DNA from: a virus
IMG/VR virus record: IMGVR_UViG_3300032006_000020
Location: 1-43,320 of that record
Direction: 5' to 3' (one strand)
DNA length: 43,320 nucleotides
Shown here: positions 11,199 to 43,320 of the stretch, piece by piece
Numbering within the stretch: the first letter of the stretch is position 1
How the letters are laid out: the number at the start of each line of letters is the position of its first letter
Position numbers and translations under genes: made by a program
Notes under the pieces: model-generated
Database searches by the model: none
Seen by the model: the letters and a program-made list of their open reading frames with translations, nothing else
What the model was told of the DNA's origin: nothing

Positions 11199-12998
11199 AT
11201 GGATATAACAATAAAACATATGGACAATCTGTTTGCAGTAAATGCACAAAAGTCTGCTACTCTTAGTTTGAATCCTGTAGGTGAGATGTATAAACGCCAA
11301 GTTGGTATTGCAAATAAAGGTGATCATCTTCAAGCTGCACTGATTGATGTTTATCCATTTATGGGGCAGCAGAATAGGATGGAAGTATTAGATTTTTTGT
11401 CTATGAGAGGAGATCCCCAACAAAATATCAAAACAATGGCAGATAAGTTCTCAACTATTGATACTCGTATAATGAGTGCGATAAATCATTCCTTACCCTC
11501 TATTATCCAGCGTCCACGACATAAAGCATGGCATGCCCATCTAGTAAAAACTACGATGCATAGACTTATTAATAAGGGGATTAAAGGAGAATATTATGAT
11601 GAACAAAGTGCTTTACCTAAAGCAATTAATATGCTTTATGGTGGATACCAAATATTCCCTACTAATGCTCCTTTTAATATTGCATTCCCAAAACAGAAAT
11701 TAACCGATGCTAATGTAGGATTAAATGAATGGGAAGAGGTACAGGATCACTTGTTCATGCAATTGCATCAGAAATATGCAGGGAAAATATCATTTATTCC
11801 AAGAGCAAATGTGTTGGAAGGATTAGACCGTGAAGAGCTAAATGCCAGGAAAAAACAAATAGAGCAATCTCCGTGGACACCTTATTCAAAAGAAAATGAA
11901 GGTCGATTTAATATGAAAGCATTGGGGGTAAATACCTATAATGCACAATGGAATGCAATTCATTCAAGGCTTGTTAAATCGCAAGGCAGTTCAATACAAT
12001 TCGGTTTTATTAATGCTGGACATGATCCTAGTAAAATACAAGGGGTTATAGTAGAACATATGTCCACAGGTGAAAAACGGATAATTGGAGATATGCTTGG
12101 ACTAGAATATGACTCATCTAAGCCTGACTTTGGAAGTTATGTTCCTGCTGACTTTACAATGGATAATACAATAAAAATGATGCAGTCTAGGCAAGCATGG
12201 CAAAAAGCAAATTCTGGTGATGACATAATTCCTCATTCATTAGATATTCCATATGGAGAAGGAATATGGGATGGATGGGATCCTGTTACTGCAATAGGGA
12301 GAATATTTTCAAAGGACTTTGGAGAAGAAGGTGGTGATTTCAGCAGAGAAGTAATACTTAATCAGTATAAATATACACGAGCATATTGGGAAAAAGAAAA
12401 TGGGAGGAAATACCGTGATTGGCCTAGTGGACGAAAAGGACCTGATGGCAATTATGGAGATTGGGATCAAGCATCTGGTAAAGGATATGCAAGTCTTGCA
12501 AAAAACACATTTGGAGGCAAATGGTTAACAGAAGTATTTGCACCAGGACAAGTAGAAAATGACTTGTTCTTCCAGCCACTTGTAGAAGAGTTATTTGAAG
12601 AAGAAAAAAGATTAGGAAGAAAAATGACTAATCGAGAATTATACGACTTATATCAAATAGTAAAAGGAAGGCTTAATGGTAAACCAGATTTCTGGTCAGG
12701 TATGCTGGATAATAGACTTACAGATTTTCTATTCCAGGGTAAAGCATGGTATGATCCAGATGACGATGATAGTACACCACAGACTCTATTTGATGCATAT
12801 GTCGTAAAAGGAGGGAAATTCTTTGGCAAAGATCCATATAATTATCATTGGGTTGACAGTGATACGCCAATTGCTGATTGGCTAGGAAGAGGAATAAAAC
12901 ATCTTGGTGGAAAAGATGCCAAGTTATATTATGATATGTGGCGTGTATTTACAGCACCAACTGGTGCAAGACATGAAGGAACTAATATATTTAAATAA
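11199..12998 (+). CDS. Internal virion protein, possibly the first part of a longer protein
   Basis: A 599-residue protein starting 9 bases after the upstream gene, with no strong ribosome site. Aromatic-rich segments recur (WDGWDPVTAIGRIF, GGKWLTEVFAPGQ, FWSGMLDNRLTDFLF). I see no lytic transglycosylase motif. It ends TAA at 12996-12998 and the next gene begins with ATG at 12999 in exactly the same frame, so one stop codon separates two halves that would otherwise be a 923-residue protein. The role as an ejection protein is inferred from position. Confidence 0.6.
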   Translation: MDITIKHMDNLFAVNAQKSATLSLNPVGEMYKRQVGIANKGDHLQAALIDVYPFMGQQNRMEVLDFLSMRGDPQQNIKTMADKFSTIDTRIMSAINHSLPSIIQRPRHKAWHAHLVKTTMHRLINKGIKGEYYDEQSALPKAINMLYGGYQIFPTNAPFNIAFPKQKLTDANVGLNEWEEVQDHLFMQLHQKYAGKISFIPRANVLEGLDREELNARKKQIEQSPWTPYSKENEGRFNMKALGVNTYNAQWNAIHSRLVKSQGSSIQFGFINAGHDPSKIQGVIVEHMSTGEKRIIGDMLGLEYDSSKPDFGSYVPADFTMDNTIKMMQSRQAWQKANSGDDIIPHSLDIPYGEGIWDGWDPVTAIGRIFSKDFGEEGGDFSREVILNQYKYTRAYWEKENGRKYRDWPSGRKGPDGNYGDWDQASGKGYASLAKNTFGGKWLTEVFAPGQVENDLFFQPLVEELFEEEKRLGRKMTNRELYDLYQIVKGRLNGKPDFWSGMLDNRLTDFLFQGKAWYDPDDDDSTPQTLFDAYVVKGGKFFGKDPYNYHWVDSDTPIADWLGRGIKHLGGKDAKLYYDMWRVFTAPTGARHEGTNIFK

Positions 12999-22805: not shown

Positions 22806-23009
22806 TTAAACATTTTTGGGTTTATATCCAACTAAATCTCCAGGAATTAGAGGGACTTTAAAACGCTTTCCTTCAGCTTCCAGCCTAGTCTGTACATAAT
22901 CCTGTACTAAATGACCAACCTTATCTGATCTCCCATATTTATCCTCTCCTTCCTTAATAAGCATTTCTATATACTTATTCTCTGCAGGAGTATTCTTTCG
23001 TAGTTTCAT
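22806..23009 (-). CDS. Small protein downstream of SSB, unknown
   Basis: A 67-residue basic protein (MKLRKNTPAENKYIEMLI...). It is coupled to the SSB gene through an overlapping stop and start at 23009. The C-terminal part (FKVPLIPGDLVGYKPKNV) looks like a short beta segment. No family is recognised; co-transcription with SSB and RusA suggests a DNA-metabolism accessory. Confidence 0.65.
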   Translation of the reverse strand: MKLRKNTPAENKYIEMLIKEGEDKYGRSDKVGHLVQDYVQTRLEAEGKRFKVPLIPGDLVGYKPKNV

Positions 23010-23404
23010 TAGACCCCCTGTCCAAAAGGATTAGCTACTTCTTCAGGTTCAGAATTAAAATCAGAAGAATATTCCATTGCACGATCCTTGTCTTTAGCTA
23101 AGATAAACCGATGGACAAGGAAACGATACCTCTTATTCTTTTTACCAGTTTGTTTATCTTCCCAGGTAACTACTTCAACTTCACTATCTGCAATTAGGAT
23201 TTCATCTCCCTGTCCAGCATTCTTCATATATTCCGCAGCAGGACCATATACAACAAAATCAACAAATGTCGATTTATCATTGTATTTTTTCTTCTTTCTT
23301 ATGTTTCTAACTCCAATAGAGAAGTTACAATATGCAAGGTCACTGTTAGTCTGACCATGCGATGGTGCTTGAGCGATATTTCCATAGAATTTACAGTCAT
23401 TCAT
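23009..23404 (-). CDS. ssb: Single-stranded DNA-binding protein
   Basis: A 131-residue OB-fold SSB: NDCKFYGNIAQAP at the N-terminus, LAYCNFSIGVRN, FVDFVVYGPAAEYM and the VEVVTWEDKQTGKKNKRY hairpin follow the bacterial SSB pattern. It binds single strands during replication and recombination. It ends NPFGQGV and lacks the acidic DDDIPF-type C-terminal peptide with which bacterial SSBs recruit partners. A different protein in this genome (30383) has that tail. The gene sits between RusA and a small coupled gene. Confidence 0.85.
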   Translation of the reverse strand: MNDCKFYGNIAQAPSHGQTNSDLAYCNFSIGVRNIRKKKKYNDKSTFVDFVVYGPAAEYMKNAGQGDEILIADSEVEVVTWEDKQTGKKNKRYRFLVHRFILAKDKDRAMEYSSDFNSEPEEVANPFGQGV

Positions 23405-23406
23405 CG

Positions 23407-23793
23407 TTATACCCTATTAATTGTTATGCAACCCTCTGTGTCTACCCATATCTTACGAGCAGATACCCTCCAGACCTTACAGTCTTCTTCAAGGAGAGCA
23501 TCTAATAATCCTTTTATATAGTTATCTAAGTCAGGTCGCTGTTTATGAGGAGTGCCAGCCATTTCTGATCTTTTCTTCTTTGACCAGGATTTGGGCATTG
23601 GAATAAAGAACACAATATCCAACTCCTCCCATGATTTATTCTTATCATCATTATTCTGTAAGGCTAAAAGTCTCTCGATTTCTTGCTTTACAGTATCCCT
23701 AAAGGCAAAGTAATCCTTAACTATTTGCCTTTTTGCCCATCGATCACGTTGGGTCATTCTTGGTTTCGCAAATGGTGCTACATTTAGAATCAT
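23407..23793 (-). CDS. rusA: RusA-family Holliday junction resolvase
   Basis: A 128-residue protein with the RusA signature: PKSWSKKKRSEMAG, then RPDLDNYIKGLLDAL with catalytic aspartates at about D88, D90 and D98, and LEEDCKVW (D104). RusA dimers cut four-way junctions, which would resolve recombination or replication intermediates before packaging. The ATGA overlap at 23790-23793 couples it to the upstream alpha-CTD-like gene. The length matches the family (about 120 residues). Confidence 0.88.
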   Translation of the reverse strand: MILNVAPFAKPRMTQRDRWAKRQIVKDYFAFRDTVKQEIERLLALQNNDDKNKSWEELDIVFFIPMPKSWSKKKRSEMAGTPHKQRPDLDNYIKGLLDALLEEDCKVWRVSARKIWVDTEGCITINRV

Positions 23794-24644
23794 AATTTAA
23801 ACATTTTTATAATTTTATCTTTTTTGGATTGCTTAAGTTTCTCTTCTTTCTCCATATTAAGAGTTAACTTGTTACTCTCTAATGTTTGCTTAACTTCATG
23901 GAGACATTTACGACCAAAGCTCTTTATCTTTAGTAAATCTGATGGAGCTTTCTGGATTAGTTCTCCTACAGTCCTAATCTTCGCATCCCAAAGTGTATTT
24001 ATTGATCTGATAGAAAGTTCAAGACCTTGTTCAGACTTAAGATTTTTAATTGAAGTATTCCATATTTGAGGTCGGGCATATTTTAAATCACCTCTATGCT
24101 GAAGATCCATAGGTGTTACCTGTTTCTCTTTCTTAAACATAGTGTAATTTTTCTGCCTTTCATGGTCTTCTCTTACTTCAATAATATCTGCTTTCAGCTT
24201 TTGCTTTTCTGAACTTGTCTCTGAAAGGATCCATTCTTCAACAAGATCAAATCTTTCCCACATCTCATTTTGTAAGGAACGATAATCACCTCTTAGACGT
24301 TTTAAATCACTTTTGTATTCTTCTTCAAGCATTGAGATTCTATTAGCTAGATCGTCTCTTAACTTTCGTATATCTTTTCTAATATTATCGTATTCCTTCC
24401 TTATATTGACAATATCGTCTCTTATGCTACGTCTACCCTCAGTTCCTCTTTTAACTGCTGTGTCAACTCGAGTAACTAAGTCACAATCATAAGCTACTAA
24501 TTTGTCAATGCGTTTATCCATTTCTTTAAGCGCATCTTTAGCTTTCTGAGTCATTTCATATTTGACATCAGGAGGAGATCCATTAGACATATCAAATGCC
24601 TGTCTGAAAAACTTCCCCATTGCTTCAATTTCATCTTTATTCAT
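23790..24644 (-). CDS. Coiled-coil protein with an RNA polymerase alpha C-terminal-like domain
   Basis: A 284-residue protein. Residues 1-170 are a charged, largely coiled-coil stalk (IRKEYDNIRKDIRKLRDDL). Residues 200-265 closely follow the C-terminal domain of bacterial RNA polymerase alpha: LELSIRSINTLWDAKIRTVG, then LLKIKSFGRKCLHEVKQTL. Against E. coli alpha, the DNA-contact residues R265, N268, G296, K298 and E302 correspond to R213, N216, G244, K246 and E250; S299 is Cys. The end is a Lys-rich tail. The domain should bind AT-rich minor groove or activators and may let the phage redirect host transcription; a general DNA-binding HhH role is the alternative. It shares its GAAAGGT ribosome box with three other genes. 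Confidence 0.8.
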   Translation of the reverse strand: MNKDEIEAMGKFFRQAFDMSNGSPPDVKYEMTQKAKDALKEMDKRIDKLVAYDCDLVTRVDTAVKRGTEGRRSIRDDIVNIRKEYDNIRKDIRKLRDDLANRISMLEEEYKSDLKRLRGDYRSLQNEMWERFDLVEEWILSETSSEKQKLKADIIEVREDHERQKNYTMFKKEKQVTPMDLQHRGDLKYARPQIWNTSIKNLKSEQGLELSIRSINTLWDAKIRTVGELIQKAPSDLLKIKSFGRKCLHEVKQTLESNKLTLNMEKEEKLKQSKKDKIIKMFKL

Positions 24645-24895
24645 ATCAACCTTTCTTGTTTATCATTTTCAGGGTTCCATCTAAAATCCACTAAGCTATA
24701 TTTTTTCTCATTGAATTTACTTGGAACCTCTTTAGTTTGAGATTGACCACGCTCCAATACTTCTGGAGACAAAAACATGGTCTTATTATCGTGTGTGACT
24801 TCAATGCCACCACTTTGTATCCCTGATTTGACAATATAGTCCCGAATCGACACCATATGTCCTCTCCAGAGTTTCTTTATAACAACCCTTATCAT
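24641..24895 (-). CDS. Small protein coupled to the alpha-CTD-like gene, unknown
   Basis: An 84-residue protein ending in an ATGA overlap with the next gene. Two starts are plausible: the first ATG with AAGGAGG five bases upstream (used here), or a second at residue 14 with GGAGAGG upstream. The shorter version begins MVSIRDYIVKSGIQSGG. No domain is recognised. Coupling suggests it is made in step with the alpha-CTD-like protein. Confidence 0.65.
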   Translation of the reverse strand: MIRVVIKKLWRGHMVSIRDYIVKSGIQSGGIEVTHDNKTMFLSPEVLERGQSQTKEVPSKFNEKKYSLVDFRWNPENDKQERLI

Positions 24896-24950: not shown

Positions 24951-25403
24951 CTAATTATGGAACTGAACATAGTCTTTTCCATCATCTCCCCTGGTTAAAG
25001 TAAATTTACGCCCATCTTGAACTCCATCAACAGGCATACCGCAAACTCCTTTATTTATTGTCTTGCCTTCCGAGATAAAATTTCTTAAATCCTCAAACAT
25101 TTTCTTGGATTTAGAATAATCTATATCCTTATGGGCAAGTTGCTGAGAATTTTCTATACGTTTTTTTGTATATATTCGTTCTCGTTCCTTGTAAATAGCC
25201 ATAAATTCTGCTATACTAGGCATCTTAAGTGAAGATCCACGACCATCTGTAATAATGTCGTATGCTTCTTTAAGAACTGTACTGTTTGGTATCTTTAATT
25301 TATCTTGCCAAACCTTAAGTTTAACCTCAGTCAGTGGTATGTTGTATGCTTCGCAAAGCTGAACTACCAATCTCCTGACTTGAGGATGTATGTTCGTTTC
25401 CAT
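24951..25403 (-). CDS. Putative helicase loader (G39P/P-like)
   Basis: A 150-residue protein with strong ribosome site AAAGGAG. The N-terminal half has the pattern VWQDKLKI...VLKEAYDII...LKMPSIAEF, which resembles the helical domain of phage helicase loader/inhibitor proteins of the G39P type (W...L, A...I, P.IAE). It follows an O-like replication gene, the lambda O-P order. The first 77 bases overlap the upstream gene in another frame. The loader role is inferred and moderately supported. Confidence 0.5.
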   Translation of the reverse strand: METNIHPQVRRLVVQLCEAYNIPLTEVKLKVWQDKLKIPNSTVLKEAYDIITDGRGSSLKMPSIAEFMAIYKERERIYTKKRIENSQQLAHKDIDYSKSKKMFEDLRNFISEGKTINKGVCGMPVDGVQDGRKFTLTRGDDGKDYVQFHN

Positions 25404-30382: not shown

Positions 30383-30790
30383 CTAAAAGGGTATATCCTC
30401 AGAAAAAACCTCTCTTCTGGCTTGTTCCTTGAATTGTTCCATCATTGATGCCACATCAAGCGGTTGCTTACCACTTCCATGACAATATGAACATGGTTCT
30501 GGCACTTGTCTTCCTTCTATTGCACAGCCTACCATTTCTAATCCTGATCCGCTACATGTACCACATGGACCAGTTGCTAAACGCAGCAGTCTTTCTAGCT
30601 TATCAAGTCTCTCCATTAGCTCCATAACCATATTGGCATGTTGAGCTTCCAGTTTGCCTCGTTGTCTAGTTTCCTGTTCAAGCATATAGACTCTCTCAAC
30701 TAAGTTCTTGCTTATTTCCCTTAGTTCATTATCTTTTGAGTCATGCTCAACTATTTCAACTCCTGCCCAGGTCTTCTTTTCTTTTGTCAC
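30383..30790 (-). CDS. Coiled-coil, DnaJ-type zinc protein with an SSB-like C-terminal tail
   Basis: A 135-residue protein. Residues 18-70 form a coiled coil. Residues 76-107 carry two CxxCxGxG units (CGTCSGSG and CSYCHGSG), the zinc-binding motif of DnaJ, enough for one zinc site. The final residues are REVFSEDIPF. The last five (EDIPF) match the conserved C-terminal peptide by which bacterial SSB recruits its partner proteins (DDDIPF in E. coli). It could occupy or recruit SSB-interacting proteins of the host. It overlaps the next upstream gene by 35 bases. Confidence 0.7.
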   Translation of the reverse strand: MTKEKKTWAGVEIVEHDSKDNELREISKNLVERVYMLEQETRQRGKLEAQHANMVMELMERLDKLERLLRLATGPCGTCSGSGLEMVGCAIEGRQVPEPCSYCHGSGKQPLDVASMMEQFKEQARREVFSEDIPF

Positions 30791-33041: not shown

Positions 33042-33144
33042 GTTAGATGGGTGTGTGATGGATGATGAGTACAATCACAGAGAGTGGAACTGAAGATATA
33101 CACGCTATAATTCAATTGGATATGCTGCTATAACAGTATAAGAG

Positions 33145-33187
33145 TGCCATCTTTAACAGACTGCGACCCTTTGGAGCAGTCATGGCA
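33145..33187 (+). promoter_or_regulatory. Two-step hairpin in the divergent region
   Basis: TGCCAT (33145-33150) pairs with ATGGCA (33182-33187), and inside it GACTGC (33159-33164) pairs with GCAGTC (33176-33181). The inner loop is GACCCTTTGGA, and an eight-base bulge lies on the 5' side. All 12 pairs are perfect. It is not followed by a T tract, so a structured RNA or replication element is more likely than a terminator. Confidence 0.5.
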
Positions 33188-33271
33188 CGGCAGAGAAATC
33201 TGCTTATACTGGTATACAGCCAGATCCAGAATTATTAGTGTGTATCAAAGTGTAACGAACACAGATTTAGC

Positions 33272-33423: not shown

Positions 33424-33585
33424 ATAGTTTTCCTAGAACCGACTATAAGTATACAAGAACATCCCCAGTATAAATCCCAGCACAGATCCAACGTGTACCC
33501 CCTCCCCACAAAATTGGCTACTCCACACCCATAAAACATCCCTATCACCTACACGGGGGGAAAATATGTTTAACCCATAAAAAAC

Positions 33586-33615
33586 TTGACAAATATATTT
33601 TTTTAGCTGTATACT
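33586..33615 (+). promoter_or_regulatory. Rightward promoter of the packaging and late genes
   Basis: A perfect TTGACA (33586-33591), an 18-base A/T-rich spacer and TATACT (33610-33615). The start of the small terminase gene lies about 105 bases downstream behind two hairpins. This is the nearest strong promoter to the late operon. Confidence 0.7.
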
Positions 33616-34894: not shown

Positions 34895-37800
34895 ATGGCA
34901 GATATAAAGAAACCCAAAGATAAAAGCAAGTATATTGAGATTAAGGGACCTTTCCATCTTAGGAGTCCTGAAGCTCAACAGAGAGTTGCACAGGGGATTA
35001 CTGAATTAGCAAAAAAATATCCTGATGCTAAGTTTATTTTACGAGAAGGTGCAAGTAAAAACCCACGCAAAGCCAATGTTTACACTCAAGCCTTTTCTAC
35101 TCTCTCTTATCTCAAGGAAGGAAAGAGAATTAAGGTTGTTCAGGCACAATATGGGCGTGGTAAAGGCGGTTCAGAAGCAAGAGAAGCCATTATCAAGTCA
35201 TTAGAGCCATTTGAAACCGCAGAATTTACCTTTGGAGGCAAAAGAGTTACAGAAGATTATGATAAATGGCGTGATGTTGACAAAGCACTAAGCCAAGAAA
35301 AAGTATTTGATCCCCTCCGTAGCAGAAAAAACCCTAAAACTGGCGAAAGATACCAAGTTAAGAAATATCCAGGCAAAGGAACACATGCAACCAAGAAAAT
35401 TGATGCATATTTAGATAAAGTATCTGAATATGGGAAAACTAGAGGGGCTAGACCAGAAAGTGTGGATGCTGCACTTGAATATATACAAGATAAAGCGGAT
35501 TTATTCTACGAACAGCAAAGAACAGGCACAAAAAGAGTCTTATCGTGGGATCGGAAGACAGGAAAGAAGGTTTACAACACAAAAGAGCCGATCCACATGA
35601 TAACTGGAGACAGATCAAGACGTATTGCCAAACTCCAGAAGGATTATGGTACTCCTCCTAAACTTAAAGGCAATGTTGCAGTTGAACAGGCTAAATCAAC
35701 AGCTAAACATCAAGTGCCAGTTAATATCACTGAAGATCCTGTATTTGATAGAAGAGAAAAGGTACATACCTTAACTCATAAGACTGTATCTCCAGGTACA
35801 GACATAACAGGGCTTAAAAGCAAACCAAATGTATCTGTAACTAAAAGTCTGGTTAAAACCTCAGAAATTAGGAAAATAGGCACACAGTTACGCTTACCTC
35901 TGCCAGAGACTTCCTCTGAAGCTCCAAAAAGCAAATCCACATATCTTGGATTATCTCCGCATGATAAACTTGGATTGTCTCCTATTCCTAAAAAACAATT
36001 TGGTATAACAAAAACACAGCCAATTGAAGGTCATAAAAAGGGTGAAATTATTACAGGACTAAGAGAGGCAGATGTAGACAGATCCCCTAAAGGCATTGAA
36101 ATAATTGATGATTCTGCAAGGAACATAGATGAATTGAGTACTCTTGAAGGTCCTCCATCGCCTTCACCTATTGAACAAGCAACTATTGAAAAGGTGCAAG
36201 CACCCTTATCAGCTAAACATCAACCAATGTCCTATTCAGCACGGCAAGGTGCAGCATTGAGGAAAGAAATGGATTGGTATGGAGAGAAGCATGGTCAGAA
36301 GAAGGGGTCAATTGAATATGCTCAAACTCCAGGCGAACCAATTACTCAGGATACAGCCAAACGAAAAGATTTTATTCAAGACTTTTCACAGAGAGAAGAC
36401 TTAAAACGAGCAAATATAGATATAGGGACACCTCCGCTAGTTACAGGGAAACAGGGGGGTAAAAGAGTAAAAGTAACTGAAACTAAAGTTCAAGGTGATA
36501 AGCGTAGCCTGTTCCCTACTCGTGGACCTTTAAAAACTGTGAGTGGCAAGCCCATAACAGTTAAAACTAAAGATATGGGCAATATTAAAATCGATAGGAC
36601 ACATCCTTCTAATCAGCTAACTTCTTCTCTTGCTCCTGCTGTAAGCAAAGCACAGGGTGTAGAATTTGATGCGGATCAGGCAGCATTTAAAAAAGCACAA
36701 GTTGAAGATATTAAAGTGTCAGACTATGAAGGAATCGACTTAGGAGAAGATAGAGGTAGTGGAGCACATTACCAAGTTGATAAAGGAGATCTTAATCTTG
36801 GAGATGATTATAGTTACCTTCCAGATAAAGATAAAGCACTTAAGAAAGAATTGGCAGGAATACACCCAGAACAATGGGCAAATGAAATTACTGTAAGCAA
36901 AAAAGATCTTACGGTTATTTCAGGAGGCCAGATAGGTGCTGATAGGATTGGACTTGAAATAGGAAAAGAGCTCGGATTTAAAACTGGAGGCACTGCACCA
37001 CCAGCATTTGCAACTGATGTTGGGTTTGATCCTAGCCTCAAAGATTATGGTGTAGTTGAAGTGTCACCAAGAGATCAGTCTGAGTATGCACAGAGAACAG
37101 GAACTAGGAATAAATATGGGGCAAGAACAGAACAAAACGTACTTAAATCTGATGTTACCTTCTTGTTCACAAAACCTGAACATAAAGATTCACCAGGATC
37201 TAAACTCACTCGCAAACTTGCAATACAGCATGGGAAACCTCTTTTAGAGAATCCGACAGCACAAACTGTTAAAAAATTAGCTGAAGGTGGTATTAAAATG
37301 TCAACTGTTAATATTGCAGGGAATAGGCAGTTTGATGATAGAAAGGCTATTTCAAACGCTCTTACAGCATTTGGAGAAACAGTTTCGGTTGAACAGCAAA
37401 GGCAATGGGTAACAAAATCAACTGTAGGTGATACTAAGGCAACAACCAAAACTACTGGAATATCCGATGTATTACAGGGAGATGCAATTGATCCTATTGC
37501 AGATCCGAGACATGGCAGTACAAGCCTTATAAGATCATCTACTTCACCACATAATGTCAGAGAAGCAATTCCTGGTGTTTATAAACCTGATGTAACTAAA
37601 GATCCATATGTGGATCGTCCTAAGAAGCGTGATTACGCATGGCAGGATAGACAGCAAAAACTGGCAGCAAAAGGCTCAACCACTTGGTATGGGACTGATG
37701 TAGATACAAAAGGTAATGTATATGAAAAACTTGTGAAAAAATATCCGAGTGATATGCCAATAGAGGAGCAACTGGAAAAAGAAAAAGTATTTGCAAAGAA

Positions 37801-38632
37801 AAGTGGCGGTTCACCACAACATCAAGCATTAATGAATTACAATAAGAGGCGTGATGCAGAGATACAGAAACTTAGTGATTCTGGTGAATTAGCCTATGTA
37901 AGTACCAGACCTGGCACTGAAACCAAGAAGGATATTAAGCCAAAGACTATCAGGCAACAAAATTATGATGCAAATGTTGAACAGCTATCTCTTATCAGGA
38001 AAAGCCAGAAGCCTGGTCAGGATGTTACAAAACAAGTACAAAATCTTGAGAGTAATATCAAGAAGAGCCTGAGAGGTGAAAAAAGAGATACATATATCGT
38101 TACAGATGAAAAAGGAGATAAAAAACGTATAACAGGAGATATATCATTTACTGGCGAAGGTAGTGGTCCAATGATAACTAAATCTGTCAAAGCTCCAACA
38201 ACAGCAGTTAAACAGTCAGACAAGGCTCGTATTGCTAGAAGTATTATGAGAAATACACCGAAAGTTGTACTTGGTCCTGCATTGCTGGCTGTAACTCCAT
38301 GGATTGCAAGTAAGCAACTTAAGGCGAAAGGCATTGATAAACCTACTACTGGACAAGTAGTTCAGGAAAATATTTCAGTATTTGCTGGTGCTCCGAGAGT
38401 TATTAGTGGAGTAGGAGAGAAAAAAGGATACTTGAATGTTTTAAAAGACTATGATACAACGTCAATGAAAGAATTAGGGAAAAGGCGTGTACCACAGCGA
38501 CACGTTACTGGAACTGTAACTCCATTTGATAAAATGAAAAAAGCCATTAGTGGAGCAGTAGCAGCTTGGGCAAATGCATCAAGATTATCCAATGAAGCTA
38601 TGAAAGCACATGGTGGCTGGAGATTTAAATGA
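34895..38632 (+). CDS. Giant multidomain protein with a cpYpsA/SLOG-type domain
   Basis: A 1245-residue Lys-rich protein between the terminase subunits. Residues about 669-826 contain a recognisable domain: VISGGQIGADRIGLEIGKEL, TGGTAPP, RTGTRNKYGARTEQNVLKSD and GSKLTRKLAIQHGKPLL. These are the marks of the circularly permuted YpsA (putative molybdenum carrier) branch of the Rossmann-like SLOG superfamily, which binds nucleotides or related ligands. The N-terminal 140 residues look like a separate alpha/beta domain, and long low-complexity Lys/Thr/Pro linkers join the parts. Size, linkers and location fit the polyvalent proteins proposed to enter the host with the DNA. The stop overlaps the HNH gene. 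Confidence 0.7.
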   Translation: MADIKKPKDKSKYIEIKGPFHLRSPEAQQRVAQGITELAKKYPDAKFILREGASKNPRKANVYTQAFSTLSYLKEGKRIKVVQAQYGRGKGGSEAREAIIKSLEPFETAEFTFGGKRVTEDYDKWRDVDKALSQEKVFDPLRSRKNPKTGERYQVKKYPGKGTHATKKIDAYLDKVSEYGKTRGARPESVDAALEYIQDKADLFYEQQRTGTKRVLSWDRKTGKKVYNTKEPIHMITGDRSRRIAKLQKDYGTPPKLKGNVAVEQAKSTAKHQVPVNITEDPVFDRREKVHTLTHKTVSPGTDITGLKSKPNVSVTKSLVKTSEIRKIGTQLRLPLPETSSEAPKSKSTYLGLSPHDKLGLSPIPKKQFGITKTQPIEGHKKGEIITGLREADVDRSPKGIEIIDDSARNIDELSTLEGPPSPSPIEQATIEKVQAPLSAKHQPMSYSARQGAALRKEMDWYGEKHGQKKGSIEYAQTPGEPITQDTAKRKDFIQDFSQREDLKRANIDIGTPPLVTGKQGGKRVKVTETKVQGDKRSLFPTRGPLKTVSGKPITVKTKDMGNIKIDRTHPSNQLTSSLAPAVSKAQGVEFDADQAAFKKAQVEDIKVSDYEGIDLGEDRGSGAHYQVDKGDLNLGDDYSYLPDKDKALKKELAGIHPEQWANEITVSKKDLTVISGGQIGADRIGLEIGKELGFKTGGTAPPAFATDVGFDPSLKDYGVVEVSPRDQSEYAQRTGTRNKYGARTEQNVLKSDVTFLFTKPEHKDSPGSKLTRKLAIQHGKPLLENPTAQTVKKLAEGGIKMSTVNIAGNRQFDDRKAISNALTAFGETVSVEQQRQWVTKSTVGDTKATTKTTGISDVLQGDAIDPIADPRHGSTSLIRSSTSPHNVREAIPGVYKPDVTKDPYVDRPKKRDYAWQDRQQKLAAKGSTTWYGTDVDTKGNVYEKLVKKYPSDMPIEEQLEKEKVFAKKSGGSPQHQALMNYNKRRDAEIQKLSDSGELAYVSTRPGTETKKDIKPKTIRQQNYDANVEQLSLIRKSQKPGQDVTKQVQNLESNIKKSLRGEKRDTYIVTDEKGDKKRITGDISFTGEGSGPMITKSVKAPTTAVKQSDKARIARSIMRNTPKVVLGPALLAVTPWIASKQLKAKGIDKPTTGQVVQENISVFAGAPRVISGVGEKKGYLNVLKDYDTTSMKELGKRRVPQRHVTGTVTPFDKMKKAISGAVAAWANASRLSNEAMKAHGGWRFK

Positions 38633-42050: not shown

Positions 42051-43320
42051 TCATGAAAAAGATCCAATTGCGACTCAGTTAGATAAGCAATACGAGTTTC
42101 TAAAAGGAAAACGGACAACATGGGAACGTAATTGGCAAGAGATTGCTGAGTATGTTCTTCCTCATCGTTCTGATTTTACATCTAAACGCTCTAAAGGTGA
42201 AGAAAGACTCGAAATGGCATTTGAGGGTACAGCAATGAGATCTCTTAAACGCTTTGCCTCAAATATACATAATGTCTTTACTCCAATGGGAGCAGATTGG
42301 TTTAGGTTAACTACTGGTCATCCTTACATGGACAGTCAGCGTAAAATTGCTTTATGGTTAGAAGATGCAACACGAATCATTAAACATCATATCTCAAGAC
42401 CATCATCAAACTTCCACTCTGCAATCTATCAGTACTACTTGGAAGCAGGGGCTTTCGGAACTGGCATTATTTTTGTTGAAGATATTCCTGGTATGGGGCC
42501 TCATTTTAGGAACTTCCCTTTATCTGATTGTGTGCTGGCTGCTGGTGGAGAAATGGAAATTGATACCGTCTTCAGACTCTACAAACAAACATGCAAAGAC
42601 TTAATATCTAAATATAGTCCAGATGTATTGCCTGAGTCTATTATAAAAAAAGGGCAAAGTGAAAAAATGCTGGAAGAAGTTGATGTAGTACATTATGTTG
42701 CACCAGCATGGCTTCTTCAAGAAGCTCTTCCAAAAGAATGGATGTGGCCTTATGTATCAGTCCATTATCTTAAAGATCAAAAGAGAGTCCTCTCATTTGG
42801 GGGATTTGATAATATGCCATATATCTGTGCAAGATGGGAAAGATCAGATAGAGAGATATATGGAAGAGGTCCAACATGGGAAATATTACCTGATTGCAGA
42901 TTGATTAATGAAGTAGAAAAAGTCTTCTTGAAGGGAGTGCAGAAAGCAATTGCACCACCTATGTTTGTCCCTGACTCTGGGCTTCTGGATCCACTTGATA
43001 CTACACCTGATGCAATCAATTATTACACAGCAGGAATTGGAGGGAAGGATACAATATTCCCTGTACCGAATGCTGGTAGAGTTGAATATGCACAAGATCT
43101 CAATGCAAGGCTGGTAAACTCAATTAAAGAAGGCTACTTCCTAGATGTACTTGAGTTGCCAGGTCCAATAGCACCAGATGGTGATGTTATGAGATTCAGT
43201 GCAACAGAAGTATCAGTAAGAATGCGTAATAGGATGCCTGTTCTTGGACCATTACTGGCACGACAGGAATCAGAACTACTCGATCCGCTCATTAAGCGTA
43301 CTGCATATATATTAACAAGA
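42043..43320 (+). CDS. Portal (head-to-tail connector) protein, N-terminal part
   Basis: The gene starts at the ATG at 42043, inside the end of the preceding gene, and runs open to the window end; it continues at base 195 of the left end. Typical connector segments are visible: WERNWQEIAEYVLPHRSDF near residue 30, NIHNVFTPMGADWFRL near 80, YYLEAGAFGTGIIFVED, and GRGPTWEILPD. It belongs to the podovirus head-to-tail connecting protein family. The junction at the contig ends preserves the frame, and the three base differences there are all silent. Confidence 0.93.
   Translation, partial: MLDHEKDPIATQLDKQYEFLKGKRTTWERNWQEIAEYVLPHRSDFTSKRSKGEERLEMAFEGTAMRSLKRFASNIHNVFTPMGADWFRLTTGHPYMDSQRKIALWLEDATRIIKHHISRPSSNFHSAIYQYYLEAGAFGTGIIFVEDIPGMGPHFRNFPLSDCVLAAGGEMEIDTVFRLYKQTCKDLISKYSPDVLPESIIKKGQSEKMLEEVDVVHYVAPAWLLQEALPKEWMWPYVSVHYLKDQKRVLSFGGFDNMPYICARWERSDREIYGRGPTWEILPDCRLINEVEKVFLKGVQKAIAPPMFVPDSGLLDPLDTTPDAINYYTAGIGGKDTIFPVPNAGRVEYAQDLNARLVNSIKEGYFLDVLELPGPIAPDGDVMRFSATEVSVRMRNRMPVLGPLLARQESELLDPLIKRTAYILTR
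43127..43320. repeat. Overlap of the circular contig, right copy
   Basis: Second copy of bases 1-194, differing at 43254 (A for G), 43276 (C for T) and 43278 (A for G). All three changes fall in leucine codons and leave the protein unchanged. The unit genome is therefore about 43,126 bases. Confidence 0.9.

Follow-up and report, generated by a model that had tools for sequence, protein, structure and literature searches.

The analysed DNA (the window) is a stretch of 43,320 nt from an uncultivated virus of bacteria, IMG/VR record IMGVR_UViG_3300032006_000020, whose ends form an imperfect terminal repeat (1-194 versus 43127-43320; 191/194 bases identical), indicating an essentially complete genome of ~43.1 kb. 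The phage is of a short-tailed type, with tail tubular proteins and a terminase 52-55% identical to those of vibrio and Pelagibacter podoviruses. A leftward gene block extending from ~33 kb to 22.5 kb is dedicated to replication and recombination, and a rightward block, starting at 33.7 kb and running past the contig end on to 22.5 kb, comprises genes for the terminase, the virion structure and lysis. The gene under study (23790-24644, minus strand; ATG start), located close to the end of the leftward operon, encodes a 284-aa protein. ATGA overlaps join this gene to both neighbours, namely an upstream gene of 84 aa (24641-24895, minus strand; its homologue in the related phage G001 is 56% identical) and the downstream RusA Holliday-junction resolvase (23407-23793, minus strand; PF05866, E=9e-16), which is followed by a single-strand DNA-binding protein, SSB (23009-23404, minus strand; PF00436, E=2e-10). 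Profile searches placed a YqaJ/RecE-like exonuclease and an O-like initiator together with SSB in the same strand-consistent operon, where all neighbours of known function are replication or recombination genes. An earlier note, made from the sequence alone, had proposed this coupling to RusA and co-transcription with SSB and replication genes in a phage devoid of its own RNA polymerase. Both points hold: several searches of the window, one of them weak alone since its control gave no signal, found no phage RNA polymerase.

Two other ORFs of this genome deserve mention. A 1245-aa ORF with a SLOG-type cpYpsA domain (34895-38632, plus strand; E=1e-14) sits between the small and large terminase genes, and its size varies widely among relatives (828, 1101 and 627 aa). 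The second, of 135 aa (30383-30790, minus strand), matched a DnaJ-like zinc finger and antitermination Q, both weakly (E=0.005 for the latter), and is a possible second regulator.

Residues 202-267 of the 284-aa protein (23844-24041, minus strand) form a bona fide RNA polymerase alpha-CTD. The Pfam profile PF03118 matched this segment with 59.2 bits (curated cut-off 23.8; E=3.4e-16), phmmer recovered solved alpha-CTDs from the PDB with E down to 4.5e-9, and AlphaFold modelled the domain with pLDDT of 93-98. The leading Foldseek matches in the PDB were all polymerase alpha-CTDs (0.6-0.8 A over about 55 residues), with 1LB2 superimposing at 0.8 A over 56 residues and 41% identity. Equivalents of E. 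coli R265, N268, G296, K298 and E302, the DNA-contact set, are all kept, so that the alpha-CTD-like domain and the five residues read by eye in the earlier note were both confirmed by comparison with the profile and with 1LB2-type structures. The same note had considered that an unrelated helix-hairpin-helix (HhH) might fit better. We discarded such a repair-type identity (UvrC, ligase, Rad51), as the next related Pfam fold, RAD51D_N, reached E=0.056, under its cut-off, and a viral ligase matched with E=0.2 at rank 15. Other positions of the domain have diverged: C269 is replaced by T and S299 by C; of the residues that face sigma, E261 is retained and D259 has become G; and the activator-facing 287 determinant is largely altered (E286 to P, R317 to E).

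No match to the alpha N-terminal domain (alpha-NTD) was found in the protein with Pfam or NCBIfam profiles. The NCBIfam rpoA models scored 32-64 bits, against cut-offs of 228-523, and covered residues 201-280 only. The protein is thus not an RNA polymerase alpha subunit. PHROGs returned no convincing family for it, and neither Pfam nor PHROGs revealed homology to the known late regulators Q, RinA or ArpU. The best cellular match in a pattern-based scan was a SAR324 rpoA (53%); since 60 residues do not suffice for a tree, no host was assigned from it.

Instead of an alpha-NTD, residues 27-175 (24120-24566, minus strand) form a long helical stalk, with AlphaFold helices at 27-66, 71-140 and 144-175 and homology across relatives in the shuffle tests described below. 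Its most conserved motif in the alignment of relatives is EEWILSETSSEKQKLKAD (residues 136-153; 24186-24239, minus strand), in which W138, E146, K147 and L150 are invariant in the four proteins first aligned and partly lost in L198 and L269. The earlier note was right that the N-terminal part is not alpha-NTD and that it is built of long helices, but its coiled coil over residues 1-170 fared less well: the best period in a heptad test was 3.6, and period 3.5 gave p=0.011 and 0.004 in two segments. A strict heptad repeat is thus only moderately supported, and "long helical stalk" is the safer description. A basic C-terminal tail ending in FKL (23793-23825, minus strand) is common to the window protein and those of G001 and L198.

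Related phages were collected by a capsid-guided scan; L198 and the near-identical pair L269/L270 came from further scans guided by RusA and by the upstream gene. Four related viral proteins, all syntenic with the window gene, combine the stalk with a terminal alpha-CTD, so that the fusion does recur in other phages, where the earlier note had proposed to look for it. In G001 (L164:1465-2391), whose capsid is 95% identical, the relative has 308 aa, is 41% identical over 198 aa and lies directly before RusA; in G006 (L170:5042-5752; capsid 66%) it has 236 aa and the same position. The other two are those of L198 (ORF ending at 2609) and L269 (1306-2106). Stalk homology, scored against window shuffles that preserve local composition, was evident between the window and G001 (z=11.8), the window and G006 (5.8), G006 and L198 (7.6), L269 and G006 (14.9), and L269 and G001 (14.8). 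G002 and G003 lie outside this survey, as their contigs do not include the early region. A direct scan of IMG/VR revealed no close relatives of the full protein, pairing with G001 returning G001 only, and the matches in cultured phages were set aside as apparent host rpoA contamination or short unannotated records. The control L034, an unrelated helix-plus-alpha-CTD protein, gave a stalk z of about 0 and was rejected as a homologue, which indicates that this architecture arose more than once.

The two parts of the protein do not always travel together. A protein encoded elsewhere in the early region of G004 has the stalk, EW-EK motif included (z against the window, G001 and G006: 4.3, 7.1 and 5.9), and lacks the alpha-CTD, ending in a different C-terminal domain that AlphaFold models with low confidence (pLDDT 35-65). 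The stalk is therefore the constant part and the C-terminal module the variable one. The alpha-CTD varies too. Its contact set is intact in the window and G001; in G006, L198 and L269 only R265 and G296 are kept, N268, K298 and E302 are lost, and E302 is K in all three. These figures come from relatives found by synteny, which are the unbiased sample; conservation in the pattern-retrieved set is inflated by the search patterns. With these contacts lost in three of the five stalk/alpha-CTD proteins, minor-groove binding is not family-wide, and competition for UP elements, put forward in the earlier note, fails as a function of the whole family. The alpha-CTDs of G006, L198 and L269 may have shifted to protein contact.

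The stalk/alpha-CTD gene occupies a variable slot, bounded upstream by a replication-module gene conserved in synteny across relatives (24951-25403, minus strand) and downstream by RusA. It fills this slot in the window, G001, G006, L198 and L269/L270. In L267, L276 (=L190) and L277 (=L191), the same slot holds an unrelated protein of 222-227 aa whose C-terminal part is a sigma70 region 4 (RpoD models of NCBIfam; Pfam, E=1e-8; PHROG sigma factor, 7e-11) and whose N-terminal part is, in our own reading of the sequence, a putative HTH. These occupants comprise two sequence types only, 65% identical, and did not co-occur with the alpha-CTD proteins in the records searched, including the 38-kb record of L267. 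Position beside RusA and exchange with a sigma-region-4 protein are thus both observed among related contigs. The slot contains small genes only, or is empty, in L185, L271-L275 and L280-L282, from which we conclude that the stalk/alpha-CTD gene is accessory and not essential to this phage type.

Free alpha-CTD proteins are common in viral contigs, and some are already so named in BFVD. Among 57 non-redundant viral proteins with an alpha-CTD, Pfam detected Sigma70_r4, a sigma70-region-4-like HTH, in the same chain in 11 (L028, L038, L064, L066, L070, L072, L078, L079, L007, L012 and L051) and an XRE-type HTH in two; L078 unites XRE HTH, sigma region 4 and alpha-CTD. Swapping in the slot and chain fusion with sigma region 4 together point to work at promoters. 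The neighbours of other viral alpha-CTD genes, in a census without control, were mixed (nucleotide kinases, endonucleases, DNA polymerase) and were given no weight in the argument. Further architectures were noted: two tandem alpha-CTDs in one protein (L062:5253-5924 and L063), and, in L042, L045, L046, L052-L054, L003, L031 and L040, an N-terminal alpha-CTD followed by a helical-looking part, the reverse of the window arrangement.

The sole near-consensus sigma70 promoter of the window, TTGACA-18-TATACT (33586-33615, plus strand), precedes the terminase and structural genes. It has an A-tract upstream and an equivalent with the same spacing in G001, at 11277, and is a candidate target of the stalk/alpha-CTD protein. 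Just 5' of it, a block conserved with G001 and partly with G002 (33504-33566, plus strand; CCCCACAAAA ... CCTACACGGRGRGAAAATA) is a possible regulator site. The intergenic region, of ~800 bp, also contains a candidate RNA with strong folding that resembles a three-way junction (33125-33221, plus strand; z=-6.4), for which Rfam gave no match. Its counterpart in G001 (L164:10824-10917; z=-2.8) has a similar shape with different paired bases (CAGTATAAG/CTTATACTG versus AGTTGA/TCAACT).

We lean, by somewhat better than even chances, to the view that the stalk/alpha-CTD protein is a phage transcription regulator acting via host RNA polymerase. Its stalk, which probably forms oligomers and probably binds a partner, would present one or more alpha-CTDs. 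At phage promoters, for instance the sigma70 promoter ahead of the terminase and structural genes, the alpha-CTD of this phage would grip A/T-rich DNA in the minor groove and/or contact sigma region 4 or the polymerase, thereby aiding the shift from replication-module to structural-gene expression. Late-gene activation is a prediction of this model, as are its components: oligomerisation, polymerase contact, DNA binding, promoter choice and the sign of the effect. An alpha-CTD with its DNA-contact set and a sigma70-like structural-gene promoter with an A-tract speak for such a regulator, and the slot shared with a sigma-factor-like protein suggests redirection of the host gene-reading machinery. 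Against it stand the contact residues lost in three relatives, the slot empty in many others and the replication or recombination role of the known operon neighbours.

These neighbours are at the root of the strongest alternative, which we nevertheless hold unlikely: a replication or recombination accessory, in which the HhH-fold alpha-CTD would bind DNA without sequence preference and the stalk would keep RusA, SSB or a further replication protein on DNA. The ATGA overlap with RusA, seen in the window and in G001, the operon shared with SSB, exonuclease and initiator, and the loss of specific contact residues would all fit. However, the domain is an alpha-CTD by both sequence and fold, not a repair-type HhH, many relatives have RusA without any stalk/alpha-CTD protein, and the other protein seen to occupy the slot carries sigma region 4. 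A variable slot can gather unrelated genes, which counts against arguing from exchange; even so, the exchange together with the sigma4/alpha-CTD fusions favours a host-transcription regulator over a repair protein. Of the functional reading in the earlier note, action on host transcription is the part that gains support.

Lower still in our estimation is a decoy or inhibitor, whereby free alpha-CTDs would rival the host's own alpha-CTD in binding UP elements, activators of the CRP type or sigma region 4 and so lower host transcription. Phages do target this surface, as T4 Alt/ModA ADP-ribosylate alpha R265 (PMC2988021), and the window and G001 proteins keep the contact set intact; yet a decoy requires high copy number, the determinant that faces activators is not kept, and the degenerate relatives would be unable to compete for UP DNA. 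A nucleoid-like DNA-structuring or tethering protein, or other accessory cargo without a specific transcription role, is marginally less probable again, since patchy occurrence and the G004 stalk with its different C-terminal domain suit it, but it fits poorly with a protein that has kept a specific domain derived from polymerase and trades places with a sigma-4 protein.

Returning to the regulator acting via host polymerase, we tentatively extend it to a class of modular phage transcription factors, a possibility we rate well below the regulator itself. The stalk would carry a polymerase-derived alpha-CTD, supplied in trans to host polymerase at the phage's promoters, and either the module or the whole gene would be exchanged, the partners being the unrelated C-terminal domain of G004 and the HTH plus sigma-4 protein of the slot. 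Phages seize host RNA polymerase in many ways, and an extra alpha-CTD on a separate protein is apparently unexplored in the literature we searched. If true, this would amount to promoter control in trans, would assign a role to the large class of phage proteins named only by domain, and would reveal, as a natural experiment, which residues of an alpha-CTD count once it is freed from polymerase.

Polymerase alpha-CTDs (E. coli 1LB2, B. subtilis 1Z3E, Caulobacter 9ZUM) share with the window domain the sequence family, the fold and the five DNA-contact residues. The window protein differs in its helical stalk in place of the alpha-NTD, and hence of polymerase assembly, in its altered 287 determinant and in its FKL tail. 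Free alpha-CTDs are likewise encoded by other phages, being annotated in Erythrobacter phage vB_EliS-L02 (ORF 40; PMC9127768), in Bacillus phage Goe8, and in other viral contigs and BFVD entries, with architectures that differ (sigma region 4, HTH, short helical extensions); the window protein is therefore a variation on a known theme. Our literature search returned no characterised phage free alpha-CTD protein and no comparable stalk family, and a term search of a jumbo-phage survey (PMC7824862) turned up no passage on alpha-CTD. As far as searched, the novelty lies in the family built on the stalk, in the variation of its terminal module and in the alternation with a sigma-4 protein in the slot. 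Several phage late regulators use sigma-4-like HTH domains, and in lambdoids the Q gene is found where the early operon ends. ArpU, Ltr and RinA of Gram-positive phages and Q of lambdoids are, like the window gene, at or near the end of the replication module; they are unrelated to it in sequence, an alpha-CTD replaces their HTH, and the activity of the window protein is putative. Late regulator genes of Gram-positive phages stand just before the terminase genes (PMC5601072). Finally, T4 AsiA/MotA, gp33 and Alt/ModA redirect host polymerase via sigma region 4, the flap or alpha R265. These are different proteins, and the window protein, in contrast, would supply the alpha-CTD itself.
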